From assembly GCA_017415105.1 (NCBI GenBank), contig JAFQJD010000003.1, forward strand, positions 1 through 64,000: DNA of 64,000 bases, given 5' to 3'. This DNA comes from Clostridia bacterium. GTDB lineage: Bacteria; Bacillota; Clostridia; UBA1381. This document shows positions 6,775 through 33,242 of this stretch, one piece after another. A model generated the notes under the pieces. The model saw nothing but the letters and a program-made list of their open reading frames with translations. It did no database searches and was not told where the DNA came from. Numbering within the stretch: position 1 is the stretch's first letter; each line of letters begins with the position of its first letter. Both the position numbers and the translations under genes were made by a program.

Positions 6775-6844
6775 ACTGCAAAGAGTGCTTGCGGAGAATG
6801 CATCTCCATAAATTCCAGCATTCGGAGCAAGCATTCTTTGCAGT
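6775..6844. repeat. Interspersed hairpin repeat, copy 1
   Basis: The arms 6775-6801 and 6818-6844 pair at 22 of 27 positions, with a GGAG/CGGA internal loop. The conserved core reads AGAATGCA...GCATTCGGAGC on the plus strand. It fills most of the gap between argJ and tadA and belongs to a family of seven copies in this window. Confidence 0.8.
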
Positions 6845-6885
6845 TACAATCCATAAGGAAATGTGGGATGCGACGCTTATAGGTC

Positions 6886-8109
6886 TTATGATCTATAGTC
6901 ACCGTTGATTTTTACATAATCATATGTAAGGTCACAACCCCATGCTTTCGCCTCAGCATTACCGAGATTGAGATTTACGTCAATAAAAATATCTTCCTCC
7001 GAAAGGATTTCTTTTGCCAATTCCTCTGAAAACTCAATTCCTGCACCGTTACGGCATACAGGTAATACGCCTGCATTTGAACGGAAATCCACGTCCACCT
7101 TGTTTATATCAAACTCTGCCTCGGCATAACCGATTGCACATAGAACTCTGCCCCAGTTAGCATCAGCACCAAACATTGCACACTTTAAGAGCGGTGAACG
7201 TATAACACTCTTTGCAACAATAATTGCCGTATCAACATCAGGAGAGCCTGACACTGTACACTCAAGAAGCTTTGTTGCACCTTCACCGTCCTTTGCAAGC
7301 ATCTTTGTAAGCTCACTCATCACAATGTAAAGTGCTTCTTTGAATATATCATAATCTTTACCCTCTGCTGTGATTTCAGTGTTTTCTGCAAGACCGTTTG
7401 CGTGCAGAAGAATTGTATCGTTTGTTGATGTGTCACCGTCAACACTTAAACAGTTATATGTAACCTTCACGATTTCAGACAATGCCTTTTGCAGCATACC
7501 GGCAGACACTGCGGCATCTGTTGTTATAAAGTTCAATGTAGTTGCCATATTCGGGTGTATCATACCACTGCCTTTTGCCATACCGCCAAGACGGCACACT
7601 TTACCGTCAAGTTCAAATTCTACTGCATACTCTTTTTTCACAGTATCGGTTGTCATGATTGCTGTTGCGGCACGCTCGTTACCGTCATATGTAATTCCCT
7701 CTGCAAGTGCCGATACATTCTTTTCAATCGGCTCAATCGGCAGTATCTGACCTATAACACCCGTTGATGCTACAAGCACATCATCAGCAGAAATTCCAAG
7801 TGCCTCTGCCGCCAACACACACATTGCCTCGGCTTTCTGGACACCGTCAGCATTGCAGGTATTTGCATTCTTTGAGTTCATTATAACTGCACGTGCAACA
7901 CCGTTTGTTTTTTCAAGGTGTGACTTTGTAACAAGAATCGGTGCACCCTTTACCTTGTTTGTTGTATAAACGCCTGCTGTTTTTGCAGGGACATCTGACA
8001 CATACAGTCCCAAATCGTTTTTATCGGGGTTTTTATTAAGACCGCAGTTAAGACCGTTTGCTTTATATCCCTTTGCGGCACATACGCCACCGTCAATTAC
8101 CTTATACAT
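6886..8109 (-). CDS. argJ: Bifunctional ornithine acetyltransferase / N-acetylglutamate synthase
   Basis: This 407-residue ArgJ transfers acetyl from N-acetylornithine to glutamate, which gives the cyclic arginine pathway. The self-cleavage site is visible in KGSGMIHPNMATTLNF (residues about 180-195), where the chain splits before the nucleophilic Thr of the ATT. Full family length is present. GAAAGGA precedes the ATG. No ArgR-like box is obvious upstream, unlike argC and argD. Whether it also has synthase activity cannot be told from sequence. Confidence 0.95.
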   Translation of the reverse strand: MYKVIDGGVCAAKGYKANGLNCGLNKNPDKNDLGLYVSDVPAKTAGVYTTNKVKGAPILVTKSHLEKTNGVARAVIMNSKNANTCNADGVQKAEAMCVLAAEALGISADDVLVASTGVIGQILPIEPIEKNVSALAEGITYDGNERAATAIMTTDTVKKEYAVEFELDGKVCRLGGMAKGSGMIHPNMATTLNFITTDAAVSAGMLQKALSEIVKVTYNCLSVDGDTSTNDTILLHANGLAENTEITAEGKDYDIFKEALYIVMSELTKMLAKDGEGATKLLECTVSGSPDVDTAIIVAKSVIRSPLLKCAMFGADANWGRVLCAIGYAEAEFDINKVDVDFRSNAGVLPVCRNGAGIEFSEELAKEILSEEDIFIDVNLNLGNAEAKAWGCDLTYDYVKINGDYRS

Positions 8110-8138
8110 TTTTATCCAGTCCTTTCAAATAATCAAAT

Positions 8139-8168
8139 CAAGGATTGCTTGAGGCAATCCTTGTTTTT
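8139..8168. terminator. Hairpin between the CNNM gene and argJ
   Basis: A perfect 10-bp stem (8139-8148 with 8154-8163, loop TTGAG) is followed by a T-run only on the plus strand. On the minus strand, where the genes lie, the T-run is weak, so it may act as a partial terminator or a processing site. Confidence 0.5.
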
Positions 8169-8175
8169 AACATCT

Positions 8176-9429
8176 TTATTCCTCGTCCTCGGGATCGGGT
8201 TCAAAAAGCTTTGTAACAATAACCTCTGTCACACGACGCGGGTCACGCTTTGACACACATACGTGCAACGGTCCGAAGGTGAACTCATCGCCAACACGCG
8301 GTATCTTACCAAACTCCTCAACTACCCATCCGCCTACTGTTGAATGGTCAATATCCTCAACCATATCAAAGAGTGCAAACATATCATCAAGGTCCGCTGT
8401 TGAACGGACTTTATATTTCTTGTCCGAAATCTGCACGAACGGTTCTACTACAGTATCGTGCTCGTCCCAGATTTCACCAACAAGCTCTTCTAATATATCC
8501 TCAAGTGTAACAATACCGACCGTACCGCCAAACTCGTCAAGAATAATTGCCATATGCGATTTTTTTGACTGTAATGTTCTTAAAAGCTCTGATATTTTCA
8601 TAGACGGTACTACAAATATCGGCTCGGTCATTACGTTATTAACCGTCTGCTGTGTCTTTCGCATTATTGCAAAGTCTTTCTGATTGAGTACACCGATAAT
8701 GTTGTCAATAGTGTCACGATAAACAGGCAGACGTGAGAAGCCTTTCTCAAACTGCTCTGCAATCTCCTCAACACTGTCTTCAATGTCGATTGCAACAAGG
8801 TCTACACGGCTTGTATATATATCCTCAACCTCGATATCATCAAATTCTATAGCGTTTCTTATGAGCTCACTCTCGTTCTGGTCAATCTCACCGTCCTGAT
8901 GAGCTTCCTCAACCATAGTTATAAGCTCTTCTTCTGTTACACCACGATCCTCTTCAGCCTTAATCACCTTATATACCAGCTTCTGCCATATCGAAATAAA
9001 CCACGTAACCGGTTTAAATATAACCATACACAAAGATATCACCGGTGCAACAAACATACAAAACCGTTCAGGCATATTCTTAGCAATGCCCTTCGGTGTT
9101 ATTTCGCCAAACATAAGTACAACAATGGTTGTAACTACAGTTGATACTGTCGGGCCTATTTCCTCGTTTATGAGGTCAATAAACATAACCGTTGCAATTG
9201 CAGTAGCTCCAATGTTTACAAGGTTGTTACCGATAAGTATTGTTGATAAAAGCGAATCAAGATTTTCAGAAATCTTCAATGCCTTTTTCGCACGCTTGTT
9301 ACCGTCACCGGCAAGTGCTTTCAGTCTGATTTTATTCGCTGAAAAGAACGCCGTTTCCGTTGCCGAAAAGAACGCCGATAAAATCACTAAAATTACAAGA
9401 ATAATAATTCGCGACAAACTGTCGTCCAT
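8176..9429 (-). CDS. CNNM/CorC-family membrane protein with CBS pair
   Basis: This 417-residue protein has an N-terminal DUF21/CNNM membrane domain. The ETAFFSANKIRLKALA segment near residue 25 is characteristic, and about three further helices lie before residue 165. A CBS-domain pair (residues about 205-330) and a C-terminal CorC_HlyC domain (residues about 340-410) follow. The family is linked to Mg2+ and other cation efflux; older annotations call it hemolysin C. The ribosome site GGAGG is 13 bases from the ATG, longer than usual, but no other in-frame start is nearer. Confidence 0.9.
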   Translation of the reverse strand: MDDSLSRIIILVILVILSAFFSATETAFFSANKIRLKALAGDGNKRAKKALKISENLDSLLSTILIGNNLVNIGATAIATVMFIDLINEEIGPTVSTVVTTIVVLMFGEITPKGIAKNMPERFCMFVAPVISLCMVIFKPVTWFISIWQKLVYKVIKAEEDRGVTEEELITMVEEAHQDGEIDQNESELIRNAIEFDDIEVEDIYTSRVDLVAIDIEDSVEEIAEQFEKGFSRLPVYRDTIDNIIGVLNQKDFAIMRKTQQTVNNVMTEPIFVVPSMKISELLRTLQSKKSHMAIILDEFGGTVGIVTLEDILEELVGEIWDEHDTVVEPFVQISDKKYKVRSTADLDDMFALFDMVEDIDHSTVGGWVVEEFGKIPRVGDEFTFGPLHVCVSKRDPRRVTEVIVTKLFEPDPEDEE

Positions 9430-9532
9430 ATAAAAAGATGCTCCTCCTCAAAAGCCACAGCTCATATATGTCTTTCGGGCCGGAATACTCAACAGCCGAC
9501 ATAAATGAGCTCATTTATAAGTTACCTAAAAT

Positions 9533-9561
9533 ATTATACAATACATAACGTTAAAAATCAA
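9533..9561 (-). promoter_or_regulatory. Promoter and leader of the CNNM gene
   Basis: TTGATT (9556-9561) and TATAAT (9533-9538) are spaced by 17 bases on the minus strand, overlapping the end of the yihY-like gene. The resulting leader is about 95 bases and holds an 18-base palindrome around 9510-9527 plus G/C-rich segments. Confidence 0.6.
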
Positions 9562-13256: not shown

Positions 13257-13333
13257 CGGGATGTAGCGCAGTTTGGTAGCGCATCTGGTTTGGGACCAGA
13301 GGGCCGCAGGTTCGAATCCTGTCATCCCGACCA
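13257..13333 (+). tRNA. tRNA-Pro (TGG)
   Basis: The acceptor arms CGGGATG and CATCCCG pair fully. The anticodon loop TTTGGGA gives anticodon TGG, the T arm has GGTTCGAATCC, and CCA is encoded. It is first of four tRNA genes. Confidence 0.97.
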
Positions 13334-13344
13334 GAATTGTCTAT

Positions 13345-13420
13345 GGGAGTTTAGCTCAGCTGGGAGAGCATCTGCCTTACAAGCAGAGGGTCACAGGTTC
13401 GAGCCCTGTAACTCCCACCA
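13345..13420 (+). tRNA. tRNA-Val (TAC)
   Basis: The acceptor arms GGGAGTT and AACTCCC pair fully. The anticodon loop CTTACAA gives TAC and CCA is encoded. Confidence 0.97.
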
Positions 13421-13436
13421 TAATTCAACTTAATAT

Positions 13437-13512
13437 GCTGGTGTAGCTCAATTGGCAGAGCAGCTGATTTGTAATCAGCAGGTTGCGGGTTCGAGTCCCA
13501 TCACCAGCTCCA
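13437..13512 (+). tRNA. tRNA-Thr (TGT)
   Basis: The acceptor arms GCTGGTG and CACCAGC pair fully. The anticodon loop TTTGTAA gives TGT, the discriminator is T, and CCA is encoded. Confidence 0.97.
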
Positions 13513-13513
13513 G

Positions 13514-13535
13514 CGGGACAAGTTAACTTGTCCCG
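13514..13535. repeat. Perfect 22-bp palindrome between tRNA-Thr and tRNA-Tyr
   Basis: CGGGACAAGTT is followed directly by its reverse complement. It starts 2 bases after the tRNA-Thr CCA and ends 8 bases before tRNA-Tyr. No T-run follows, so it is more likely a processing hairpin or protein site than a terminator. Confidence 0.75.
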
Positions 13536-13543
13536 TTAAATAA

Positions 13544-13628
13544 GGGAGAGTTCCCGAGTGGCCAAAGGGGACAGACTGTAAATCTGCTGCTTATAGCTTC
13601 GGTGGTTCGAATCCACCCTCTCCCACCA
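13544..13628 (+). tRNA. tRNA-Tyr (GTA)
   Basis: This is a class II tRNA with acceptor arms GGGAGAG and CTCTCCC, anticodon loop CTGTAAA (GTA), a long variable arm and encoded CCA. Its last 10 bases form part of the inverted repeat that follows. Confidence 0.97.
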
Positions 13629-20210: not shown

Positions 20211-20257
20211 TTTTCTTCCTCCCTTTGCTTATGCCTTATGATTAAATCACTCTTATA

Positions 20258-20286: not shown

Positions 20287-20334
20287 GTGTCAATGATGTA
20301 CAAACTTTTATATGTTTTTTGGTCCTTTTTGCAC

Positions 20335-20368
20335 AAAATGCAGTGTTGTATAACCAACACCGCATTTT
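20335..20368 (-). terminator. Terminator of the lytic transglycosylase gene
   Basis: A 14-bp stem (20335-20348 with 20355-20368) contains one G-U pair when read on the minus strand. It lies 3 bases past the stop. The following T-run is short (TTTT). Confidence 0.6.
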
Positions 20369-20370
20369 CA

Positions 20371-21381: not shown

Positions 21382-21426
21382 CTCATTTCGTTTTTATTTT
21401 CAGCGCAAAAATTCTTCGCCTTGTCC

Positions 21427-21455
21427 ATTATACTATATTTTCGCCGATAAGTCAA
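21427..21455 (-). promoter_or_regulatory. Promoter of the lytic transglycosylase gene
   Basis: TTGACT (21450-21455) and TATAAT (21427-21432) are spaced by 17 bases on the minus strand. Confidence 0.75.
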
Positions 21456-21474
21456 TGTTATATTATGTAAAACA

Positions 21475-21495
21475 GGGTGTCAAGAAATGACACCC
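21475..21495 (-). terminator. proS terminator
   Basis: GGGTGTCA and TGACACCC form a perfect 8-bp stem 6 bases past the proS stop. TGTTTTA follows on the minus strand. Confidence 0.65.
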
Positions 21496-21501
21496 TTCGC
21501 A

Positions 21502-23208
21502 TTATATGTTCGCTTTTACAAATTCTGTAACCTTTGAAACTGCATCAGAAAGTGCAATTTCCGTAGCCTGTTCCATTTTTCTTTCCTTGTATTCAACGAT
21601 GCCTTCGCCAAGCTTTTTACCAACTACAACACGTACCGGAATACCGATAAGGTCCGCATCCTTGAACTTAACTCCCGCACGCTCGCTACGGTCATCAAGA
21701 AGTGTTTCAATGCCTGCGTCGCAAAGCTCATTATAAAGCTTTTCTGCCGCTTTCATCTGCTCCTCGTCCTTGTAGTTTGCAGGAACAACAATAGCCTGAT
21801 ACGGTGCAATAGATACCGGCCAGATAATACCGTTATCGTCGTGCAGCTGCTCAACTGCGGCCGCAACACAACGTGTAACACCGATACCGTAGCAGCCCAT
21901 AATAACTGTCTGCTGTTTGCCTGATTCATCAAGATATTTAAGTCCCAAAGCATCAGAATACTTTGTGCCAAGCTTAAAAATATGTCCAACCTCAATACCC
22001 TGCTCTGACTTGATTGTACCGCCGCACTTCGGGCACTTATCACCTGTTACTACGACACGGATATCTGCAACTACATCAGGTGTGAAATCTCTGCCCATAT
22101 TTACGTTCTTGTAGTGCATATCTGTTTCATTTGCACCTACAACAAAGTTTTTCATAAGCTCAACTTCTTTGTCTGCATATACAGGTATTCCCAAATCAAC
22201 CGGACCTGCAAATCCAACCTGTGCACGTGTTATTTCACGTACAATTGCAGGCTCTGCAAGCTCTAAATCGTCTGTACAGCCGACAAGATTCTTAAGCTTA
22301 ACCTCGTTTACGTCACGGTCACCTCTTACCATTGCTGCAATATATTTGTCGTCTGCCTTGTATATGATTGTCTTTGCAAAGTTTGTTGCACTCATTCCCA
22401 AAGACTCAACAAGCTCGTCTATTGTGTGAGCGTTGGGAGTTTCGATTTTCTCCATTTCAAAATCGCCCTCTATCTGCTCTACAGCTTCGGGGATACACTC
22501 ACACTTTTCATAGTTTGCCGCATAACCGCAAGCGTCACAGTATGCAATACCGTCCTCGCCTACGGGTGATTTTACCATAAACTCCTGCGAACCGCTACCA
22601 CCCATAGCACCGCTGTCTGCATCAACTACAGTAAAGTCAAGACCAAGACGTGTAAAGATGCGGTTATATGCATCATACATCTTCTGATAAGACTCATCAA
22701 GTCCCTTCTGGTCAAGGTCAAAGCTGTATGCATCCTTCATAACAAACTCACGGCTTCTTATAACACCGAATCTCGGTCTGCCCTCATCACGGTACTTTGT
22801 CTGAATCTGATACAGTGTCATCGGGTATTCCTTATATGACTTTACATTGTCGATAACACACTGTGTAAATAGCTCCTCGTGCGTAGGTCCAAGACAGAAA
22901 TCACGCTCGCCACGGTCCTTGAGTTTGAACATACTCGGTCCGAAAACCTCCCATCTGCCCGATGCCTGATAAGCCTCTGCCGGCAAAAGTGCTGACATCA
23001 ACAGCTCCTGTGCACCTGCTCTGTCCATTTCCTCACGTACTATTTCCTCAACCTTTTTGAGTGTTCTTAAACCCAAGGGCAGATATGAATATATTCCTGC
23101 TGCAAGCTTTCTTATCATTCCTGCACGGAGCATAAGTCTGTGGCTTGCTATTTCAGCCTCTGCCGGTACTTCTCTTAAAGTAGGCATTAGTAAATTCGAC
23201 ATCTTCAT
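21502..23208 (-). CDS. proS: Prolyl-tRNA synthetase
   Basis: This protein of about 568 residues is a bacterial-type ProRS with the editing (INS) domain between motifs 2 and 3. The class II motifs are GPTHEELFT and the motif 2 segment [17 protein letters not shown]-like ([17 protein letters not shown]); GCYGIGVTR is motif 3. The family start [15 protein letters not shown] fits ATG 23208, which has GGAGA 10 bases upstream; the ATG at 23229 contains that ribosome site. argB follows upstream across a hairpin repeat. Confidence 0.96.
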
Positions 23209-23259
23209 CTTGTTTAATCTCCTATTCATCTATAGTTGGTCTTCGTTAAATTTCCGTAT

Positions 23260-23330
23260 CTTGCAATGATGTGTTTGCCGAGAATGCATTTCCTTTGCAT
23301 AAGCATTCGGAGCAAATACATCTGTGCAAG
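23260..23330. repeat. Interspersed hairpin repeat, copy 2
   Basis: The arms 23260-23287 and 23303-23330 pair over 28 positions with a four-base internal loop (CGAG/CGGA). The core AGAATGCATTTCC...GCATTCGGAGCA matches the family consensus. It fills the argB-proS gap. Confidence 0.8.
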
Positions 23331-23345
23331 TCTTTGTTTCGTTAT

Positions 23346-24218
23346 TTAATACTTGTCACTCTTTATCAGTGTACCAATTCCCGTCTTTGTAAATATTTCA
23401 AGCAACAAACAATGCGGGACACGTCCGTCAATGATATGAACGCCTGTTACGCCGTCGTGGATTGCTTCAACACAACCCTGAACCTTCGGTATCATACCAC
23501 CGTTTATTGTGCCGTCCTCAATCATTTTATCTATACCCTTCGGGTCTGTTTCATAGATAATATCGCCGTTTTTGTCTTTTATTCCCTCAACATCGGTTAA
23601 AAGAATAAGCTTTTCGGCCTCGACCGCTGCTGCAACCGCCGCCGCAACCGTATCAGCATTTACGTTATAGCTGTTACCCTCGCTGTCTGTACCTATCGGT
23701 GCAATTACCGGTATCCACTGGTCCTTATATAAATGGTCAAGAACTTCTGTGTTAACCTTTGTTATCTTGCCAACAAATCCGATATCAACTTCCTCGCCAT
23801 CAACAACAGTTGTCTGCTTTTCACACTCAATAAGCGATGCATCAATACCGCTCAGACCGACTGCTCTGCCTCCGTGCTTGTTTATCAGTGCAACAATCTC
23901 CTTATTTGTTTTACCGATAAGCACCTCCTGTGCAACCTTAACTGTATCCTCATCAGTCACACGCAAGCCGTTTATAAACTTGCTCTGCACGCCCTTTTCG
24001 CTTAATGCCTTTGAAATATCCGGTCCGCCGCCGTGAACAACCACAGGATTAAGTCCGATGAATTTCAATAGAATTATGTCCTCAATAACCGAGTTCTTTA
24101 AATCCTCGTTTATCATTGCGTTACCGCCGTATTTTACAACCACAGTTTTGCCGGAAAATTTCTGCATATACGGCAGTGCATCAATAAGTATCTGGGCTTT
24201 CTTTATAAGTGCTTCCAT
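23346..24218 (-). CDS. argB: Acetylglutamate kinase
   Basis: This 290-residue amino-acid kinase phosphorylates N-acetylglutamate. VVKYGGNAM (residues about 27-35) binds phosphate and VVHGGGPDI (residue about 60) is the substrate loop. LTDVEGI and the C-terminal MIPKVQG segment are as expected. The usual N-terminal helix of arginine-sensitive forms appears present ([21 protein letters not shown]). AAAGGAAA precedes the ATG. It is downstream of argC across a hairpin repeat. Confidence 0.96.
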
Positions 24219-24246
24219 ATTAGTTTCCTTTCACCTGTATGCCCCA

Positions 24247-24310
24247 TTCGGGGGTATTTACTCAGAATGCTCGCTCTTATGGAAATGCATTCTTCACAAA
24301 CACCCCCGAA
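24247..24310. repeat. Interspersed hairpin repeat, copy 3 (inverted orientation)
   Basis: The arms 24247-24270 and 24287-24310 pair at 19 of 24 positions. The family core (AGAATGCATTTCC) is on the minus strand here. It lies between argC and argB, with a CCCCC/GGGGG outer stem not shared by other copies. Confidence 0.75.
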
Positions 24311-24322
24311 CGAGCCTTTAGT

Positions 24323-25360
24323 TTATAAATAAAATCCTGCTCTTTCTATTCCTGTCTTTTCGTCAAGTCCGAACATTATGTTCATATTCTGAATCGCCTG
24401 ACTTGCCGCACCTTTGCCGAGGTTATCTATTGCGGATACTATAACCGCACGGTTAAGTCTTTCGTCAACAACTATACCTATATCAACAAAGTTCGAGCCT
24501 GCAACGTGCTTTGTTTCGGGGAGCTTTCCTGCATCCTTGACACGTATAAAATACTCGTCCTTGTAAAATTCCTTATAAATCTCAATAACCTCTTCGGTTG
24601 TGCATGGCTTATTAAGATTTACATATATTGTTGAGAGAATACCACGCTTCTGCGGAATAAGATGAGGTGTGAATGAAATCATAACCTCCTCGCCTGCCGC
24701 TTTTGATAACTCCTGTTCAATCTCTGATGTGTGACGGTGTGTTGCAACCTTATACGCCTTTGAGTTTTCTGTACATTCACAGAAATGTGTTCCTAGCCCA
24801 AGACCTCTGCCTGCACCCGTAACACCCGACTTTGCATCAACAATGATGTTCTTGCTGTTGCCAAGACCGCTCTTTAAAATCGGATATGCACCAAGGATTG
24901 AGCATGATGTATAACAACCCGGGTTTCCTACAAGACGAGCTGACTTCACCTTGTCACGGTAAAGCTCGCAAAGTCCGTAAACTGACTCCTCCAGAAGTTC
25001 GGGCGATGAATGCTCCTGTCCGTACCATTTTTCATAAACCTTTATATCGTCATATCTGAAATCGCCGCTCATATCTATAACCTTAAGTCCCTTTTCAATA
25101 AGCGATGGGATAACATCCTTTGATGCACCGTGCGGAAGTGCAGTAAATGCCACATCACACTCTGCTACACGGTCAAGGTCAAGCTCCTCACAGGTCATAT
25201 CGAGTACGTGTGCAAAATTACCGTATACCTCCGATATATCCTGTCCATCAAAGCTGTGTGAGCCTAAAACCTCAAGTTTAACCTCAGGATGTGCACTTAA
25301 TATACGAACAATTTCTATACCTGCATACCCTGTTGCACCCAAAACAGCTACTTTAATCAT
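24323..25360 (-). CDS. argC: N-acetyl-gamma-glutamyl-phosphate reductase
   Basis: This protein of about 345 residues has the Rossmann start VAVLGATGYAGIEIVRIL and the catalytic Cys in VGNPGCYTS (residue about 148). It makes N-acetylglutamate semialdehyde. ATG 25360 has GGAGG 9 bases upstream; the longer reading to 25393 runs through a candidate ArgR box and is rejected. argB follows. Confidence 0.96.
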   Translation of the reverse strand: MIKVAVLGATGYAGIEIVRILSAHPEVKLEVLGSHSFDGQDISEVYGNFAHVLDMTCEELDLDRVAECDVAFTALPHGASKDVIPSLIEKGLKVIDMSGDFRYDDIKVYEKWYGQEHSSPELLEESVYGLCELYRDKVKSARLVGNPGCYTSCSILGAYPILKSGLGNSKNIIVDAKSGVTGAGRGLGLGTHFCECTENSKAYKVATHRHTSEIEQELSKAAGEEVMISFTPHLIPQKRGILSTIYVNLNKPCTTEEVIEIYKEFYKDEYFIRVKDAGKLPETKHVAGSNFVDIGIVVDERLNRAVIVSAIDNLGKGAASQAIQNMNIMFGLDEKTGIERAGFYL

Positions 25361-25378
25361 TATAAAATGCCTCCTTTG

Positions 25379-25412
25379 TGCATATTTATTCATAAAAATA
25401 ATTATTTATTCA
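25379..25412 (-). promoter_or_regulatory. Candidate ArgR operator of argCB (two boxes)
   Basis: On the minus strand TGAATAAATATGCA (25379-25392) fits the ARG-box core TGAATwwwwATTCA with one mismatch. A second, weaker core (25399-25412, 12 of 14) lies 20 bases away, one helical turn pair, as in tandem ARG boxes. The first box repeats the half sites of the argD box. The operator lies between the promoter and the ribosome site. Confidence 0.6.
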
Positions 25413-25440
25413 CATAATGTCATAGTAAACCATAATAGGT

Positions 25441-25469
25441 ATTGTATCACAAGCACTTACATTTGTAAA
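25441..25469 (-). promoter_or_regulatory. Promoter of argC-argB
   Basis: TTTACA (25464-25469) and TACAAT (25441-25446) are spaced by 17 bases on the minus strand. Confidence 0.7.
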
Positions 25470-25523
25470 GGGCTATATTGAATAAAAAATGTATAATATA
25501 CCGTTTTTTATGAGTATTTTCCC

Positions 25524-25558
25524 ACAAAAACAGAGCTGTTGCATTCGCAACAGCCCTG
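25524..25558 (-). terminator. galT terminator
   Basis: A 12-bp stem with one mismatch (25531-25542 with 25547-25558) lies 4 bases past the galT stop. TTTTTG follows on the minus strand. Confidence 0.8.
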
Positions 25559-25561
25559 TAA

Positions 25562-27055
25562 TTATACTTGTTCCATAAATTTATCAAATGCAGCAAGACC
25601 TTCCGCATCACGCTTATACACGCCTGCGTGGCTTAAAACCTCAACAAATACTGCACCTACCTCCTGACGGAGTATTTGGTGTATATTTTCTGCATCGATT
25701 TCAGGGTGATTTTTCGTTACTTCTTCTGCCCACTCTTTATGCGAGGCTGTCAGTTCGTTTTCTGACATATCCTTGCCAGTTAAAATTGCATCAGCAACTG
25801 CGTCAAGCTCCTCAACAAGTCTTGCGGGCAATACCGCAAGTCCCATAACCTCAATAAGTCCGATATTTTCTTTCTTTATGTGGTGAAGCTCTGCGTGCGG
25901 ATGGTATACACCAAGCGGATGCTCATCCGTTGTTATATTGTTACGCAACACAAGGTCCATCACAAGCTTTCCGTCTCTCATACTTGCAATCGGCGTAATT
26001 GTGTTATGCGGTGTACCGTCAGTCCGGGCGAATACAAATGCATCCTTATCAGTATAGCTACGCCACGATTTCAAAATTCTGTCTGAAAGCTCAATGATTT
26101 TTTCTGCACTGTCACTCTTAAGTCTTATTACGGACATCGGCCATTTAAGGCGTGTTACCTCCACATCCGAAAAACCGTTGATTTCATATCTCTTTTCACT
26201 CTCTGCTCTGTGCATTGCAAAGGTGTAGTTTCCACCCTGAAAATGCTCGTGGCTTAAAATTGAACCGCCAACGATTGGCAAATCAGCATTTGAGCCCACA
26301 ATATAGTGATTAAACTTTGAAACGAAATCAAGAAGCTTCCCGAAAACCTCTCTGTTTATTGTCATCGGTGTATGTGCTGAATTTAAGATTATGCAATGCT
26401 CGTTATAATATACATACGGTGAATACTGAAAACCCCATTTCTCACCACAGATATCTATCGGGATAATTCTGTGGTTCTGACGTGCAGGGTGGTTCACTCT
26501 GCCACCGTAGCCCTCGTTTTCTACGCACAACTGACACGCAGGATATGATGATGCCTTCTGTAACTTCGCTGCCGCAATGGCTTTGGGGTCTTTTTCCGGC
26601 TTTGAGCGGTTTATTGTAATATCAATAACACCGAACTCTGAATCCACCGTCCATTTTATGTCCCTCCCAACACGTTCACGGCGTATGTAGTTGCTGTCAC
26701 ACGACAGTTTGTAAAAATAATCAGTCGCCGCTTTTGACGATTTCTCATATAAGCTGTTGAATGTATCAATCACTGTTGATGGAAACGGCGTAAGAGTTTC
26801 CATTATTTCAGTATCAAATATGTCCCTGTAAACGATACTGTTACTTTCAAGCATACCATTTTCTGCTGCATAATCGCATATTGAATCAAGGATTTCCTCA
26901 AGCGTTTCTGATACATCTTCACAATCGCTTTCTTTGTATTCGTCAAGACCGAGCTTTGTTAAAAGCCTGTTTCGTACAAATATTTTGTCAGCATCCTTAA
27001 TAAGACCTGTTCTTATTCCGTACTCCACAAGCTCATCAATTTTTTTATAAATCAT
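25562..27055 (-). CDS. galT: UDP-glucose--hexose-1-phosphate uridylyltransferase (Firmicutes type)
   Basis: This protein of about 497 residues has the long GalT type found in Firmicutes. Visible signatures are CQLCVENEGYGGRVNHPARQNHR (shown as CQLCVENEG and NHPARQNHR) and the GGSILSHEHFQGG segment with the active-site histidine region (residue about 265). It interconverts galactose-1-P and UDP-glucose in the Leloir pathway. ATG 27055 has GGAGTG 6 bases upstream; the ATG at 27070 overlaps that site. No galK or galE adjoins, although a galactokinase-like protein lies 15 kb away. Confidence 0.93.
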   Translation of the reverse strand: MIYKKIDELVEYGIRTGLIKDADKIFVRNRLLTKLGLDEYKESDCEDVSETLEEILDSICDYAAENGMLESNSIVYRDIFDTEIMETLTPFPSTVIDTFNSLYEKSSKAATDYFYKLSCDSNYIRRERVGRDIKWTVDSEFGVIDITINRSKPEKDPKAIAAAKLQKASSYPACQLCVENEGYGGRVNHPARQNHRIIPIDICGEKWGFQYSPYVYYNEHCIILNSAHTPMTINREVFGKLLDFVSKFNHYIVGSNADLPIVGGSILSHEHFQGGNYTFAMHRAESEKRYEINGFSDVEVTRLKWPMSVIRLKSDSAEKIIELSDRILKSWRSYTDKDAFVFARTDGTPHNTITPIASMRDGKLVMDLVLRNNITTDEHPLGVYHPHAELHHIKKENIGLIEVMGLAVLPARLVEELDAVADAILTGKDMSENELTASHKEWAEEVTKNHPEIDAENIHQILRQEVGAVFVEVLSHAGVYKRDAEGLAAFDKFMEQV

Positions 27056-27129
27056 TATGTCCACTCCCATTTAACTATTACAAAAACATTCTAACATAAA
27101 TTACCATATTTGTAAATAGGGGGACACAG

Positions 27130-27160
27130 AAAAAGCCACTTTTGCACAATGGAAAGTGGC
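27130..27160 (-). terminator. Terminator of the rpmH-jag block
   Basis: GCCACTTT (27135-27142) and AAAGTGGC (27153-27160) form a perfect 8-bp stem followed by TTTTT on the minus strand. It lies about 120 bases past the jag stop. Confidence 0.8.
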
Positions 27161-27161
27161 T

Positions 27162-27279
27162 AACGCTGTTCGGATTTGGATGCAGAACAAACGAAACTCA
27201 CCCGACGGCGTATCATTATACGCCGAGTGGTGAGTTTCATTTGTAGTCTTAAACGCTCTGCGCCAAATGCGACAGCGTT
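27162..27279. repeat. Near-perfect 118-bp inverted repeat after jag
   Basis: Outer ends AACGCTGT and ACAGCGTT pair, then ATTTGG/CCAAAT and GCAGA/TCTGC. An inner stem (27188-27213 with 27218-27243) pairs at 22 of 26 positions around TCAT. It fills the space between the jag stop and its terminator. It could be a MITE-like insertion or a structured 3' UTR. Confidence 0.7.
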
Positions 27280-27282
27280 TTA

Positions 27283-28230
27283 TTAATCTTTTGAATGGGC
27301 AGCCAAATACTCCTCAAAGTTCTTGTACTCTGCCTTATGCTGCTGCGGCTTGAAATCAGCCTTGTAAGTAACTGAGCTTGAAGATGTTTCTTCTGTATCA
27401 GCATCTGCCGGATAGCTTTTATCTGCCGGCTTGATTTCGCTCTTCTTGTATCCGCCACGCTTGTTATAGGGCTTGGGATTTTTCGGAGCAATTACTACCT
27501 TTCTGTACGGCTCCTGACCGATTGAGAATGTAGTTACATCTTCATTATCCTGAAGATTTGAATGGATTATACGTCTCTCGTACGGGTTCATCGGCTCAAG
27601 TGCAAACTTCTTACCTGTACGTGCAACCTTTGCTGCAAGACGGTTTGCAAGTGCACAAAGCACTTCCTCACGCTTTTGGCGATAGTTTTCTGTGTCGATT
27701 GAAACCTTTATATAGTCCTCAGACTTCTGATTAACTACCAATGATGTGAGGTACTGAAGGCTGTCTAATGTATCGCCACGTTTTCCGATAACAACACCCA
27801 TATTATCACCCTCAAGATTTACCTCGATGATATCCTCCTTGAGTTCTGCTGTTACCGTTACCTCAATACCCATTGCATTAAGAACATCTGTTATGAAATT
27901 CTTTGCATTCTCAGCAGGTGATTCTGAGTTGTAAACACCGCCGGTTGTTTTATTTTTCTTCGGCTTTGCCGGTGCTTTTTCTGCCTTTTCCGGCTTCTTA
28001 GCCTTTGCAGTTTTTTCAGCTTTTGCCGGCTTTTCAGCCTTCTTTGCTGTTACTTTTACAACTGCATCCTTTGCACCGATGCCTAAAAAGCCCTTTGCAG
28101 GCTCCTGAATTACTTCAATTTCTGCGTTTTCCTTCTCTATTCCAAGCTCGGTTAAGGCAAGCTCTACTGCTTCTTCAATGCTTTTTGCCTTTTTTTCCGT
28201 GCTGGGTGCGTTTTTCGGGAACTTTGACAA
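27283..28230 (-). CDS. jag: Jag/KhpB RNA-binding protein
   Basis: This protein of about 315 residues has an N-terminal Jag domain (SIEEAVELALTELGI through KGFLGIG), a Lys/Ala/Pro-rich linker, a KH domain (GVVIGKRGDTLDSLQYL, residues about 145-162) and an R3H domain (NPYERRIIHSNLQ). Jag partners KhpA in RNA binding and links to YidC and cell elongation. A TTG at 28230 with GGGGAGG 6 bases upstream is the best start; no ATG is available. The start lies 56 bases inside yidC in another frame, so the two are probably translationally coupled. Confidence 0.9.
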   Translation of the reverse strand: MSKFPKNAPSTEKKAKSIEEAVELALTELGIEKENAEIEVIQEPAKGFLGIGAKDAVVKVTAKKAEKPAKAEKTAKAKKPEKAEKAPAKPKKNKTTGGVYNSESPAENAKNFITDVLNAMGIEVTVTAELKEDIIEVNLEGDNMGVVIGKRGDTLDSLQYLTSLVVNQKSEDYIKVSIDTENYRQKREEVLCALANRLAAKVARTGKKFALEPMNPYERRIIHSNLQDNEDVTTFSIGQEPYRKVVIAPKNPKPYNKRGGYKKSEIKPADKSYPADADTEETSSSSVTYKADFKPQQHKAEYKNFEEYLAAHSKD

Positions 28231-29122
28231 CGAAGTCCTCCCCTTTCTTATCAAAATAATAGTTTAATGCTAACTGCTGAATTATCTGTACAAGTCCGCT
28301 TATTATCCAGTAAAGACCTATACCTGCAGGAAGGATAAATGTAAACCAACCTGTCATAAGCGGCATCATCCACTTCATCATTGAGTTCATTGACTGTGTC
28401 TGCTCGTTCTGTGCCTTATCCTGACCTGACTGTTTCATCGAGATTTTGCTCTGCAATACTGATGATACAACAGCAAGTATCGGGATAAGAATTAACAATA
28501 CAACTCCTATATTGTTTACAGGGTCAGCCAATGCATTAATGGCATCCTGCGGTTTTCTTGAAAGATCAAGACCGAGGAAGTTGAAGTTTATATACCATTC
28601 GTGAAGCTTTCCGCCAACCTGTCCCGCCCAGCTTGAAATGCTGATCTGGTCAGTGTTCATAAGGTTAGAAGCATACTTTGCAGCATCGCCTGTTATTGTC
28701 TGTCCTGCTTTTTCGGCAAGTGACACAATCTTATCAACGATATCTGCCGGAATATCCTTATAAGGAACATTGAACATATAAGTAAGCGGTTTCTGAATTG
28801 CCTGATACAACGCGATAAGAATCGGCATCTGTAAAAGCATCGGCAGACATCCGCCCATCATACTCACATTATTTTCCTTATAAAGCTTCATTGTTTCCTG
28901 CTGAAGCTTCTGCTGATCGTTAGCATATTTTTTCTGCAGCTCTGCCAGAATAGGCTGTATTTTCTGCTGCTTTTTCATGGCCTTCTGCGATTTGATGTTC
29001 AAAGGAAGCAATATAAGCTTCATAACTATCGTAAATAAAATAATCGCAACGCCGTAGTTCTGTACCAGATCATAAATAGTCCTTACAATCCAGCCGAGTG
29101 CCATAACGATATAATGCCACAT
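28175..29122 (-). CDS. yidC: Membrane protein insertase YidC
   Basis: This 315-residue insertase of the YidC/Oxa1 family has the short Gram-positive form with about five helices. The signatures are LFTIVMKLILLPLNIKSQKAM (first 20: LFTIVMKLILLPLNIKSQKA) and the GCLPMLLQMPILIALYQ helix. There is no lipobox. The basic tail (KRTQHGKKGKKH) can bind ribosomes. It overlaps the start of jag by 56 bases. yidD lies 24 bases upstream. Confidence 0.94.
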   Translation of the reverse strand: MWHYIVMALGWIVRTIYDLVQNYGVAIILFTIVMKLILLPLNIKSQKAMKKQQKIQPILAELQKKYANDQQKLQQETMKLYKENNVSMMGGCLPMLLQMPILIALYQAIQKPLTYMFNVPYKDIPADIVDKIVSLAEKAGQTITGDAAKYASNLMNTDQISISSWAGQVGGKLHEWYINFNFLGLDLSRKPQDAINALADPVNNIGVVLLILIPILAVVSSVLQSKISMKQSGQDKAQNEQTQSMNSMMKWMMPLMTGWFTFILPAGIGLYWIISGLVQIIQQLALNYYFDKKGEDFVVKVPEKRTQHGKKGKKH

Positions 29123-29146
29123 AAGATTTCCTTTCCGGTGCGTAAG

Positions 29147-29359
29147 TTACGGAACAGGGTCATAACCACCGCCTCCAAACGGTCTGCAACGCAGTATTCG
29201 TTTTATGGCAAGATATGTGCCCTTTATCGCACCATACTTTTCTATCGCCTCTAATGCGTACTGTGAACAGGTTGGTGTAAACCTGCAACACGAGCCGTCC
29301 TTTATCGGCGAAATCTGGTGTCTGTAAAACTTAATCAAAAATATAAGTATCCGTTTCAT
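29147..29359 (-). CDS. yidD: Membrane protein insertion efficiency factor YidD
   Basis: This 70-residue protein shows the family pattern [34 protein letters not shown] and the end [14 protein letters not shown]. It sits between rnpA and yidC with a 3-base gap after rnpA. Confidence 0.96.
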
Positions 29360-29362
29360 AAA

Positions 29363-29701
29363 TTAGTTTTCATTTAAAATACCAAGCGTACGAAGAACAT
29401 ACCGTAAATCCTTTGATATCTGCTCATATGTTTTATCCGCTGCACGGTTCCTGGCAACGATTATTAAATCATAGCCAACACAGAGTCTGTCCTCAACAAG
29501 TCGCAGACTCTCACGCATAAGCCGTTTTGTGCGGTTACGCACAACAGCTTTTCCAAGCTGTTTTCCGACCGTGAACCCAACACGGTTATAATCACGTTTG
29601 TTAGGCTTTGCATATACTACCACAAATCCGCCTGCTTCAGATTTTCCGCTACGGTATAAACGTCTGAAATCTTTGTTTAGTTTAATCGGCTGAGCATTCA
29701 T
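29363..29701 (-). CDS. rnpA: Ribonuclease P protein component
   Basis: This 112-residue basic protein assists the RNase P RNA in maturing tRNA 5' ends. The RNR motif is in VVRNRTKRLMRES (residue about 56). ATG 29701 has AAAGGAGAG upstream. A longer reading to 29761 would run into the terminator and lacks a ribosome site. A hairpin terminator lies between rpmH and this gene. Confidence 0.95.
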   Translation of the reverse strand: MNAQPIKLNKDFRRLYRSGKSEAGGFVVVYAKPNKRDYNRVGFTVGKQLGKAVVRNRTKRLMRESLRLVEDRLCVGYDLIIVARNRAADKTYEQISKDLRYVLRTLGILNEN

Positions 29702-29730
29702 AAAAACACTCTCCTTTACCGAATATCTGT

Positions 29731-29783
29731 AAAAAAAGAGCGTCCCCAAAAGGCAATCCATCGCCTCTTACCGAGACACTCTC
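29731..29783 (-). terminator. Hairpin terminator/attenuator between rpmH and rnpA
   Basis: GAGCGTCCCC...GGC at 29738-29752 pairs, with G-U pairs, with 29763-29783. A seven-T run follows on the minus strand. It should let rpmH transcripts end early while some polymerase continues to rnpA. Confidence 0.65.
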
Positions 29784-29810
29784 ACAGTTTCTCACAAATA
29801 CGTGATATAA

Positions 29811-29954
29811 TTATTTCTCTGAAGTAGTAAGAATCTTTCTACCCTTTGCACGTCTTGCAGCCAAAACTTTTCTACCTGACTTTGTTGCCATTCTTGCTCT
29901 GAAGCCGTGAACCTTTACTCTCTGACGCTTCTTAGGCTGAAATGTCATTTTCAT
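29811..29954 (-). CDS. rpmH: Ribosomal protein L34
   Basis: This 47-residue protein starts [20 protein letters not shown] and is almost all basic, as expected for bL34. ATG 29954 has AGGAGG 10 bases upstream. It is the first gene of rpmH-rnpA-yidD-yidC-jag. Confidence 0.97.
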
Positions 29955-30032
29955 AATATTAGCACCTCCTATAATTTTCACCGCAATCCCAATCGATTGC
30001 ATTTACTTCCAATAAAATTAGACACCATTCTA

Positions 30033-30060
30033 ATTATACCATTAAAACGTGTTTTGTCAA
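30033..30060 (-). promoter_or_regulatory. Strong promoter of rpmH
   Basis: TTGACA (30055-30060) and TATAAT (30033-30038) with a TGG extension are spaced by 16 bases on the minus strand. Confidence 0.85.
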
Positions 30061-30110
30061 GCTTTTTTTTAAGATTTTGAACTTTTTTTACACGTTTTGG
30101 CAATTTTACA

Positions 30111-30138
30111 AAAAAACGGCAGAATAAATGCCGTTTTA
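30111..30138 (-). terminator. Terminator of the his-deoR-rnhA unit
   Basis: AAACGGCA and TGCCGTTT pair around a 7-base loop, 9 bases past the RNase H stop. TTTTTT follows on the minus strand. Confidence 0.8.
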
Positions 30139-30146
30139 TTGTCTTA

Positions 30147-30746
30147 TTATTCTATGCCCAGTGCAGATTTTGCAAGTGCATCTGCACGGTCATTATTTAC
30201 ATCTCCCGAATGTCCTTTGACTTTAATAAAACGGACATCAAGCATTGATTTTATCTCATCGTAGAACGCTTTGTATTTTTTAGTCACCGGCTTGTTTGCT
30301 TTCCATTCGCCTGTACACCATTTGGCAATACCCTCATAGTCGTGGTATAAATCAAGCTTTCTGAAGCCATTTGCAATACAGTAACGCATCACTTTGCCGG
30401 CACCTACTATCTCGCCTGCAACATTTCGCATTTCGGCATATTCGGGCTCATTATATTTATGGTTCATTTCGATTTCTTCACCGTTTACGAATATAACAGC
30501 ACCGTAGGAAAACTCATTTGTATCAGCCTTATAGCTTCCGTCAACATACGCCACAACTGCACCCTCACGGGGCATAACAGTCGTTTTGACTTCCTCATTA
30601 CGCATATAACACTCTGCTTCTATTCGTGTCGGAAAGCTTTTAAACTCTGCACAAGGGTAACCGTCAACACTGTTTTTGCATTCGTCCCAGCTTGTAAAAA
30701 TACCTGTTACTTTGCCCTGCCGTACGGCATAAAACTTTTTAGCCAT
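30147..30746 (-). CDS. rnhA: Ribonuclease H with N-terminal hybrid-binding domain
   Basis: This 199-residue protein has an N-terminal caulimovirus-type RNase H-binding domain (FYAVRQGKVTGIFTSWDECK, residues 5-24). An RNase HI domain follows with Asp in YVDGSY, Glu in NVAGEI, Asp in YHDYEG and Asp in NNDRAD, a complete catalytic set. It degrades RNA in RNA-DNA hybrids. It starts 2 bases after the DeoR stop and ends the his transcription unit. Confidence 0.93.
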   Translation of the reverse strand: MAKKFYAVRQGKVTGIFTSWDECKNSVDGYPCAEFKSFPTRIEAECYMRNEEVKTTVMPREGAVVAYVDGSYKADTNEFSYGAVIFVNGEEIEMNHKYNEPEYAEMRNVAGEIVGAGKVMRYCIANGFRKLDLYHDYEGIAKWCTGEWKANKPVTKKYKAFYDEIKSMLDVRFIKVKGHSGDVNNDRADALAKSALGIE

Positions 30747-30748
30747 AT

Positions 30749-31519
30749 TTATTCCTCTGCTAATATGATTTCCGTTCCGTTATCCTGCAATGCACTCGAC
30801 CACTCACTGTCAAGTCTTACGTCTGTTACAAACTTATCAATCTTATTAAGCGGTGCAATAACTGGAATTCCCATTTTACCGAACTTGTAGTGGTCGCCAA
30901 GGAATATCGCAGAATCCGAACATTCAAGCATAGCCCTCTTTATCTCTGCTTCATCCTCTGCACGTTCAACAAGACCGCGTGAAAGTGTTACGCCACGGCA
31001 CGAAAAGAAAAACTTATTTGCCGCAAAATTCTGACGTATCATTTTTTCTGCGTATCTTCCGGTATATGACATACTCTTTTGCTCATACAGTCCACCCGTA
31101 CACACCACACGGATATTGTCACACTCTGCAAGCTCTGACATAATACTTACTGCATTTGTTATAACGGTAAGTCCGCGTTTTTCCTTGATGTTACGTGCAA
31201 GGTACAATGCTGATGTACTTGCGTCAAGGAAAATTGTATCACCGTTACGGATAAGCTCTGAGGCACGTTTGCCTATTCTTTGCTTCAGGTCTGCGTTTAC
31301 AGTATCACGTTCTTTAAAGCCAAGCTCTGAGCCCGATGCACCGGCAAGAATTGCACCACCGTATGTACGGACAAGTATTCCCTGCTTTTCAAGCTTTAAA
31401 AGGTCACCGCGTATTGTTTCGGGTGTTACCTCAAACTGCTTTGCAAGGTCGATAACCATCACACTCTTACTTGATGTTATCATCTGTTCAATCTTCGATC
31501 TTCTCTCAACTGCAAGCAT
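30749..31519 (-). CDS. DeoR-family transcriptional regulator
   Basis: This 256-residue regulator has an N-terminal HTH (RRSKIEQMI, VMVIDLAKQFEVTPETIRGDL) and a DeoR sugar-phosphate-sensing domain with DASTSALYLAR and the SCRGVTLSRGL segment. Its ATG overlaps the hisA stop (TAATG). The ligand is probably a phosphorylated sugar by family. Its place inside a his unit is unusual. Confidence 0.92.
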   Translation of the reverse strand: MLAVERRSKIEQMITSSKSVMVIDLAKQFEVTPETIRGDLLKLEKQGILVRTYGGAILAGASGSELGFKERDTVNADLKQRIGKRASELIRNGDTIFLDASTSALYLARNIKEKRGLTVITNAVSIMSELAECDNIRVVCTGGLYEQKSMSYTGRYAEKMIRQNFAANKFFFSCRGVTLSRGLVERAEDEAEIKRAMLECSDSAIFLGDHYKFGKMGIPVIAPLNKIDKFVTDVRLDSEWSSALQDNGTEIILAEE

Positions 31520-32241
31520 TATAATTCTCCTTTTCCTGCTTTTATAGCTTCGGGCAGTTCGATGTTTCCGGTGTATAATGCTCTGCCCGTTATAACGCCC
31601 TCAACACCTGTGGGTACGAGTGATTTTATGTGTTCAATGCTTCCCACTCCGCCCGATGCGATTATGTCAATTCCTGTTGCCTTTACCATTTCAGACATTG
31701 CATCTACATTGGGTCCCATAAGAGTTCCGTCTGTTGCAATGTCGGTGTATATGATGGTTTTTACACCTATATCAACCATTTTTTTTGCAAAGTCAACTGC
31801 TGTAAATTCTGAAGTCTTTTCCCAGCCCTCAATTGCCACCATACCGTCTTTTGCATCAATGCCTATTACGATTTTATCACCGTAACGACGTACTGCCTCT
31901 TTTACAAATTCAGCATCCGAAACGGCTTTTGTTCCGATTATGACACGGCTTATACCGCAAAGAAGCTTTGCTTCAATATCTGACATAGTGCGGATACCGC
32001 CACCCGTCTGAACAGGTACTGATACAGCATCACATATACTTTTTATCGCCTGTGCGTTTACACCGTGTCCCTTTAGTGCACCGTCAAGGTCAACAACGTG
32101 TATGAATTCACCGCCAAGCTCCTCCCATTTTTTTGCCATTTGGGCAGGGTTATCACCATAAACGGTAACATCACTGAAACTGCCACGCAAAAGTCGAACA
32201 CAGTTACCGTCCTTTATATCTATTGCAGGATATATTCTCAT
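31519..32241 (-). CDS. hisA: ProFAR isomerase HisA
   Basis: This 240-residue TIM-barrel enzyme isomerises ProFAR to PRFAR in histidine synthesis. The first catalytic Asp is in YPAIDIKDG (residue about 8) and the second in YTDIATDGT (residue about 130). Phosphate loops QTGGGIR and ASGGVG are present. ATG 32241 has AAAGGAAAA upstream; a longer reading enters the hairpin repeat region. Confidence 0.95.
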   Translation of the reverse strand: MRIYPAIDIKDGNCVRLLRGSFSDVTVYGDNPAQMAKKWEELGGEFIHVVDLDGALKGHGVNAQAIKSICDAVSVPVQTGGGIRTMSDIEAKLLCGISRVIIGTKAVSDAEFVKEAVRRYGDKIVIGIDAKDGMVAIEGWEKTSEFTAVDFAKKMVDIGVKTIIYTDIATDGTLMGPNVDAMSEMVKATGIDIIASGGVGSIEHIKSLVPTGVEGVITGRALYTGNIELPEAIKAGKGEL

Positions 32242-32261
32242 TTCTTTTTCCTTTCTTTCCG

Positions 32262-32335
32262 GCTTATTCAGGGGTGTTTGCAGAGAAAGCATTTCCGTTA
32301 GCACGAGCTTTCGAAGCAAATATCCCTGAATAAGC
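32262..32335. repeat. Interspersed hairpin repeat, copy 4a
   Basis: The arms 32262-32290 and 32307-32335 pair over 29 positions apart from the AGAG/CGAA internal loop and two wobble-type changes. The core GAGAAAGCATTTCC...GCTTTCGAAGCA is in plus orientation. It lies between hisG and hisA. Confidence 0.85.
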
Positions 32336-32343
32336 TGTATCGC

Positions 32344-32417
32344 AGAGGTTTAAGGGTATCTCGCCGAAACGCTGTCGCCAAAGAAAATGCGTTTCTCTGA
32401 GACACCCCTAAACCTCT
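32344..32417. repeat. Interspersed hairpin repeat, copy 4b (inverted orientation)
   Basis: The arms 32344-32372 and 32389-32417 pair over 29 positions with the same internal loop. The core lies on the minus strand. It is set 9 bases from copy 4a in opposite orientation and abuts the hisG stop. Confidence 0.85.
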
Positions 32418-32418
32418 A

Positions 32419-33060
32419 TTATTCGACTTCAGTCTTTTCTGAAAATGCTTTAACTATCGAAAGAATTCGCTCTCTTTCCATCTTCATACTTACCTTGTTA
32501 ACAACAAATCTTGCACTCAACTCACAGATTTCCTCTAACACATCAAGTCCGTTTGCGTGCAATGTTGAGCCGGTTTCAACTATATCAACGATTACATCAG
32601 AAAGTCCCACAAGCGGTCCAAGCTCTACCGAGCCGTTAAGCTTTATAATATCAATAGTCTGTCCCTTTTCGTCCTGAAAATATTTCCTTGCAATATTGGG
32701 GTATTTTGATGCTACCTTAAGATTTGTTATTGTTCCAAGCTTGCCCCTCAACTCCGGATTTCCGCATACGCACATACGGCATTTGCCAAATCCGAGGTCT
32801 ACCATTTCGTAAAGGTTTCTGTTCTCTTCTAAAAGTGTATCCTTGCCGACAATGCCAATGTCTGCCGCACCGTATTCTACATACGTCGGTACATCCGATG
32901 CCTTTACAAGTATGAATTTCATCTTATTTTTCTCATCAGTGAAAACGAGCTTTCTGGATTTCTCTTTCATCTCCGAACAATCCATTCCGATTTCAATGAA
33001 TATATCCATTGCAAGCTCTGCGAGTCTGCCTTTCGCTAAGGCAACTGTCAAGTATTCCAT
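32419..33060 (-). CDS. hisG: ATP phosphoribosyltransferase, short catalytic form HisG
   Basis: This 213-residue protein catalyses the first step of histidine synthesis. [13 protein letters not shown] starts the family fold. [12 protein letters not shown] and the PRPP loop [15 protein letters not shown] (residue about 165) are present. It lacks the C-terminal regulatory domain and so needs HisZ, which is encoded just upstream. ATG 33060 follows AGGGAAAAG; the longer reading to 33240 runs through two hairpin repeats. Confidence 0.96.
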
Positions 33061-33092
33061 AATTCTTTTCCCTTCCGATTTATCTGTGATTG

Positions 33093-33159
33093 TGCTGAGG
33101 AGCGTTTGCGCAGAAAGCATTTCCCTTAGCTCAGCTTTCGGAGCAAATGCGCCTCGGCA
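33093..33159. repeat. Interspersed hairpin repeat, copy 5a
   Basis: The arms 33093-33118 and 33134-33159 pair over 26 positions with a GCAG/CGGA internal loop. The core CAGAAAGCATTTCCCTTAGC...GCTTTCGGAGCA (given in parts) is in plus orientation. It lies between hisZ and hisG. Confidence 0.85.
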
Positions 33160-33172
33160 AATACGCATGAGA

Positions 33173-33242
33173 TTGTGCAAGGATGTCTCAGAGAAACGCA
33201 TTTTCCTTTGCTTTAGCGTTTCGGAGAGATATTCTTGCACAA
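33173..33242. repeat. Interspersed hairpin repeat, copy 5b
   Basis: The arms 33173-33199 and 33216-33242 pair over 27 positions with an AGAG/CGGA internal loop. It is in the same plus orientation as 5a, 14 bases away, and shares the TCTC stem variant with copy 4b. Confidence 0.85.

Follow-up and report, generated by a model that had tools for sequence, protein, structure and literature searches.

A family of short hairpins is scattered between the genes of an uncultured Clostridia bacterium (GTDB lineage UBA1381; assembly GCA_017415105.1). Seven of them lie in the first 64,000 nucleotides of contig JAFQJD010000003.1, the stretch that we analysed and call the window. A first-pass annotation, made from the letters of the window alone, had proposed that these hairpins share a fixed core within stems that differ in sequence from copy to copy while staying paired. 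It offered several identities: an element like REP (repetitive extragenic palindrome) or BIME (bacterial interspersed mosaic element), a miniature inverted-repeat transposable element (MITE), or an RNA processing or regulatory element. Here we report that the hairpins form a dispersed family whose fixed core, subtypes and conserved pairing are all supported. What are they? We put at about even the chance that they are one non-autonomous, REP/BIME-like mobile family, recognised by an enzyme acting in trans as folded single-stranded DNA (ssDNA) of the strand that carries ATTTY in the apical loop. The observations that speak for mobility are the shared core, pairing that favours one strand, presence and absence in close relatives, copies that have multiplied and one hairpin pair that has been inverted as a unit.

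The genome of origin (G000 below) is 1.797 Mb and 94% complete. A search with its ArgB returned uncultured Clostridia as the nearest named relatives and then, more distantly, Monoglobus from gut samples. All of the genomes compared are draft assemblies, and the named ones are mostly derived from metagenomes. One covariance model was built from the seven window hairpins (alignment A2) and run on G000; a second was built from 60 rows, comprising 58 distinct sequences (alignment A4), and used at a laxer cut for the genomes of the genus. The placement of copies relative to genes rests on simple open reading frame (ORF) calls; gene neighbours in the window were verified with NCBIfam.

Structure of the hairpin and its folded strand

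In each window copy, read on the ATTTY strand, a 3x3 internal loop separates an outer stem of 15-20 bp from an inner stem of about 6 bp, and the apical loop measures 15-16 bases. These measurements revise the first-pass description, which had given the outer stem as 12-16 bp and the internal loop as four bases. Across the 37 copies that we find in the genome the outer stem has a median of 19 bp (range 12-27), and a copy is about 60-100 nt long. The conserved core consists of eight inner stem pairs with a favoured G·T, the 3x3 internal loop, the 6-bp inner stem and the ATTTY...A loop. The left side of the internal loop reads GNA in 22 of the 37 copies; its right side reads GNA in 17 and TGA in seven. 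The 6-bp stem is GAATGC/GCATTC in 18. In the window the strand marker in the apical loop is ATTTC or ATTTTC except in copy 1 (Table 1).

Covariation gives the pairing very strong support. In A2, 96.7% of 121 cells are paired and 11 of the 18 pairs vary on both sides. None of 500 shuffles matched either the pairing or the both-side-change value, and shifting one arm by 1-3 columns left only 32-53% paired. In A4, 95.9% of 982 cells are paired and 15 of 17 pairs vary on both sides among the 58 distinct rows, though this alignment was fitted to the model, so that its counts lean toward structure, and includes one row on the wrong strand (L064 +). At the seventh pair, 43 of those 58 rows have G-U.

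The pairing also has a polarity. When Watson-Crick matches alone define where the stems end, the outer stems hold 28 G·T or T·G pairs on the ATTTY strand versus five A·C or C·A pairs (p = 7e-5). All 37 copies fold better as the ATTTY strand, with a mean gain of 9.0 kcal/mol under RNA parameters, or 8.6 kcal/mol when the stem ends are fixed by Watson-Crick pairs. Under DNA parameters the preference is 0.8-1.8 kcal/mol in four of the five window copies tested and 7.4 kcal/mol in the fifth. A duplex palindrome bound by a dimeric protein predicts no difference between G·T and A·C. Pairs with G on the left and T on the right outnumber the reverse by 24 to 4, more than the ratio of G-C to C-G pairs (100 to 68) accounts for. 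The polarity belongs to the element itself, as copies sense and antisense to the genes both show it.

Core and outer stem vary independently of each other. The 29 copies with a long core were compared pairwise (406 comparisons). Their cores are on average 0.68 identical and their outer stems 0.37, with no correlation between the two identities (0.035). Even in the 21 comparisons with core identity of at least 0.85, the outer stems average 0.36. The copies at C10:56729 and C1:48954 agree at all 34 core bases, and copy 3 of the window agrees with C9:60021 at 33 of 34; in both cases the stems are unrelated. Either cores have been swapped between loci or arms are newly made on insertion.

Three sources for such a hairpin were tried, and none gained support. 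For arms derived from the target, we compared 16-base arms with the orthologous segments of G015 (the nearest relative), G012 and G009 and found no general excess: the mean longest match was 4.94, against 4.72 at mismatched sites (36 comparisons), and copy 4 was the sole outlier. For arms copied from elsewhere in the genome, the longest exact match within some 0.28 Mb of overlapping DNA from G000 averaged 10.9 for the better of two arms; a single shuffled arm scored 9.6, and as two arms are set against one the figures favour neither answer. The third candidate, insertion of the core into an older hairpin, was set aside since the empty sites in G015 are not unusually structured; their folding z runs from +0.9 to -1.7, with two window sites at -1.7 and -0.2. 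Segments with z below -3 were L081 and L072, which hold family copies, and L232 of G009, which holds another repeat; its partner L239 stood at -3.0. A counterpoint is that a plain hairpin takes the place of two G015 elements in relatives, at both sites in G012 and at one in G009.

Copies in the genome and in relatives

The first model returned 39 rows from G000 at E<=1, two of which are the reverse strand of listed copies, leaving 37. These 37 distinct rows score about 26 bits or more, and a full-sensitivity search of 24 loci of the genome gave 54 rows, including these 37 copies, each on its proper strand. Copies beyond the window, for which the first-pass annotation had suggested searching, thus exist in number. 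C1:9099 is a weak, shortened match that may not belong to the family, and there is a further weak match at C10:47586. Fourteen copies form seven close pairs, six inverted and one direct; the other 23 are single.

Genes on either side of a copy run in the same direction in 34 cases, converge in two and diverge in none, with one case unresolved. The ATTTY strand is antisense to the genes in 26 copies and sense in eight (p = 0.003, with the caution that paired copies are not independent). Six copies overlap an ORF: copy 6 of the window, where we judge the overlap spurious, C33:27350, C33:26749, C10:65547, C1:67629 and C1:9099.

The family appears confined to its genus. Of 61 genomes, G000 included, only five gave matches, all of them from that genus. 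The second model finds it in five of 16 genomes of the genus (G000, G015, G012, G009 and G001). A low-sensitivity search of 391 genomes from 222 genera of the class gave matches in the same genus alone; where shown, 14 candidates were scored per genome and 14 of the G000 copies were recovered, so that sparse carriers may escape it. Viral contigs searched with one exact core pattern gave no match.

How do the insertion sites look in close relatives? About 30 sites of G000 were compared with G015, where flanks are mostly about 80-92% identical. Eighteen were readable, the others not being located there. Ten of these are empty, with no family match even with all filters of the model off, five hold a family member, and three are unclear (C9:60021, C10:99848 and proS/argB). 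Over 80 nt the hairpin at C10:58552 does not differ from its G015 counterpart; the 2,782 bases around it are 89% identical. The orthologue of C39:9085 has diverged, with two doubly compensated pairs and five broken ones. The pair at C9:109017 and C9:109096 is also orthologous, with five and two doubly compensated pairs and one and three broken pairs. The whole hairpin pair, about 140 bases, has opposite orientations in G000 (C9:109017-109153) and G015 (C49:4821-4953) between collinear flanks. The argC/argB site of G015 holds a different family member, of the short type and in the opposite orientation, and the site of C13:8507 has a short-type core seen by eye, a weak match of 18.7 bits.

The hisA/hisG site of G015, otherwise empty, still has the left arm of copy 4, ten bases long (GCTTATTCAG); it may be the scar of a deletion or the target of an insertion. 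Two pair insertions relative to G015 are apparently flanked by short direct repeats, AGCACA and TTATTC. For copies 4/5 and 6/7, nine of 16 stretches were aligned (seven and eight respectively) and none shows a family hairpin by eye. At the position of copies 6/7, L214 carries unrelated sequence of greater length, and L243 gives a weak match (20.1 bits) away from the site compared.

Other hairpins and repeats occur at such sites. Three different hairpins stand between tpiA and gpmI: a full family member in G015 (L064), a short one with similar arms and no core in G012 (L254), and an unrelated short one in G009 (L253). Another intergenic repeat (AAGATAAGCGTCGCATCT...) occupies positions of G000 hairpins in L239 and L232 (both G009), and a short similar stretch is found in L228/L237 (G015).

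Copies in G012 and G009 have multiplied and, unlike those of G000, share both stems and cores. In G001 a conserved repeat, aligned over 186 to 476 bases, surrounds the hairpin; among four aligned copies the apical loop is variable, and the stem and near flanks hardly differ. This repeat (L067 1292-1654, also L071, L075 and L078) is apparently non-coding and has iteron-like CTGTATCGC motifs.

The seven copies in the window

All seven hairpins of the first-pass annotation are present, each folds, and their orientations and gene neighbours are as it described (Table 1). Its arg/his setting stands for the window and not for the family, which is found elsewhere in the genome as well. Mechanical ORFs run into copies 4, 6 and 7. 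Within those ORFs homology begins at residue 29 for HisA and residue 64 for HisG, so the copies probably lie upstream of the real gene starts.

Table 1. Hairpin copies in the window
Copy	Position	Strand	Neighbouring genes	ATTTY strand relative to genes	Remarks
1	6775..6844	+	tadA (6302-6751, -) and argJ (6886-8109, -)	antisense	loop reads ATCTCC
2	23260..23330	+	proS and argB	antisense	
3	24247..24310	-	argB and argC	sense	
4	32262..32335	+	hisA and hisG		first of inverted pair
5	32344..32417	-	hisA and hisG		second of inverted pair; TCTC/AAACGC subtype
6	33093..33159	+	hisG and hisZ		first of direct pair
7	33173..33242	+	hisG and hisZ		second of direct pair; TCTC/AAACGC subtype; core 0.85 identical to copy 5

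No Rfam family scores above its gathering threshold on the hairpins. In a scan of the window four tRNAs alone reach the gathering score, and with relaxed thresholds at the seven loci one sub-threshold microRNA family appears on a single copy. A cluster of four tRNA genes lies at 13257-13625 on the plus strand. No description of this hairpin family was found in the open-access literature searched.

Known systems and rival explanations

The REP system is the natural comparison. According to PMC8266576, REPs are short intergenic palindromes of 20-50 nt, present in many copies, singly or as pairs in opposite orientation. They have conserved unpaired bases within the stem and are active on one strand, and the transposase TnpA-REP reads them as folded ssDNA (PMC8266576). 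The stems of tagged REP families are given as 5-13 bp in PMC3733652. To judge from these sources, the present hairpins share with REP/BIME their short, multi-copy extragenic palindromes, single or in inverted pairs, their unpaired stem bases and their one-strand character. They differ in length (about 60-100 versus 20-50 nt; PMC8266576) and in outer stem (median 19 bp versus 5-13 bp; PMC3733652). They differ too in that the letters of the outer stem vary between copies while the core is kept.

Two further hallmarks were sought. The flanks of the 37 copies have no conserved tetranucleotide or motif, and there is no GTAG/CGTC-like tag at the foot of the stem. PF01797, the Y1 transposase family, has no match in G000, where 94% completeness keeps absence from being proof, and is present in five of 14 control genomes. 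In the genus it occurs in four of 16 genomes, two of the five carriers and two of the 11 non-carriers. None of the four Y1 loci (in G012, G001, G003 and G014) has a family hairpin. The protein of G001 is 246 aa long and that of G012 155 aa; we take the former to be RAYT-like (REP-associated tyrosine transposase) and the latter IS200-like. In G001 the Y1 gene adjoins a PD-(D/E)XK nuclease-family transposase gene (L268 568-2208), and a short hairpin just upstream (1395-1423) is outside this family. Since the foot tag and a resident Y1 transposase were both looked for and neither was found, we do not class the family as REP, and would call its members REP-like small mobile hairpins outside REP proper. 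The first-pass suggestion of a REP/BIME- or MITE-like character is supported; the linked RAYT that it proposed to look for is not.

Insertion of the IS200/REP type is not expected to leave a consistent flanking direct repeat, and a repeat of at least 5 bases is found at the ends of just seven of the 37 copies. MITEs of IS200/IS605-like elements are similar in being non-autonomous hairpins with strand-specific folding and no consistent flanking duplication; the difference is that we found no IS200-type element bearing this hairpin at its ends. Integron attC sites are likewise read as a folded single strand, their structure counting for more than their sequence, and their arms vary while pairing stays. 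In attC the foot is conserved, whereas here the conserved part is apical and copies stand alone or two together, flanked by ordinary genes. Intrinsic terminators are a poor match: the flanks of the 37 copies have no consistent T run, and a terminator scan of 20000-36000 found none at the elements, although its loop limit of 8 would overlook these hairpins.

If the family is indeed a mobile one read as folded ssDNA, its parts may be assigned roles. A putative single-strand nuclease or transposase would recognise the core. The outer stem would serve just to fold the core out, so that its letters could drift freely, partly via G·T intermediates. Gaps between cistrons would be where survivors remain after insertions elsewhere had been selected away. 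The antisense excess could stem from loss of copies that placed the stronger hairpin in mRNA or on the lagging-strand template. Several observations weigh against this reading. The strand preference under DNA parameters is small in four of the five copies tested, which leaves room for RNA. Unrelated stems on near-identical cores are unexpected if whole hairpins are copied. There is no foot tag in the 37 copies of G000, and no Y1 transposase was detected there or correlated with carriers in the genus. The repeats AGCACA and TTATTC should not arise from single-strand insertion, and the conservation at C10:58552 is of a kind that a functional element might show.

On a more novel reading, the inherited unit would be the core alone, some 50 bases, and each insertion would gain fresh complementary arms. 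One conceivable route is fold-back synthesis: an ssDNA intermediate would prime itself from its 3' end and copy a 5' overhang. Core identity of up to 100% with unrelated stems fits this proposal, as does the copy 4 arm at the G015 site for an arm derived from the target, although the 36 comparisons show no general excess. We consider it unlikely.

Structured RNA in operon mRNAs, with a role in processing, stability or translational coupling, would explain covariation as selection on RNA. The same-direction neighbours of 34 copies, with none divergent, agree with this, as does the strength of the covariation. The G·U pairs and 3x3 loop are RNA-like, RNA parameters separate the two strands more than DNA parameters do, and the 80 nt of C10:58552 are unchanged in G015 amid surroundings that are 89% identical. 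Selection on mRNA should have put the G·U pairs on the sense strand, and the structured strand is mostly antisense (26 of 34), so that most mRNAs hold the poorer complement. With 10 of the 18 readable G015 sites lacking the hairpin and carriers making up only five of 16 genomes in the genus, the processing or regulatory element of the first-pass annotation is disfavoured and, to us, improbable. An ordinary DDE-type MITE, transposing as duplex with target duplication and with hairpin pairs as its terminal repeats, seems the most doubtful. In its favour, all but one of the seven close pairs are inverted, AGCACA and TTATTC apparently flank two pair insertions, and in G012 the copies resemble one another as units. 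Yet 23 copies are single hairpins, flanking duplication is inconsistent, and strand-specific G·T use is unexpected of a duplex element. Conserved terminal inverted repeats are found within the G012 and G009 sets alone; in G000 the stem ends are unrelated between copies. A further alternative is that nothing has moved: the hairpins would be ancestral, their stems drifting by compensation, and relatives would have lost theirs by palindrome deletion. This could account for the G015 orthologues at three sites, two of which differ (5/2/2 pairs compensated versus 1/3/5 broken), for GCTTATTCAG lying beside the TTATTC repeat at hisA/hisG like a deletion scar, and for the short coreless hairpin of G012 at tpiA/gpmI with arms like the G015 copy. 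Simple drift poorly explains the agreement of two copies at all 34 core bases when their stems are unrelated, and the lack of correlation between core and stem identity; together with the multiplied copies of G012 and G009, this makes purely ancestral hairpins rather unlikely.

With this family, a little-studied gut lineage yields a hairpin repeat that has neither REP tags nor a resident Y1 transposase. About 60 natural variants are available for finding its binding partner. Core and stem act as separable modules, which raises a testable question: is this a mobile element that keeps its folded core and rebuilds the rest? If arms are indeed made afresh at each insertion, it would be a mobile element that constructs its own locus-specific palindrome.

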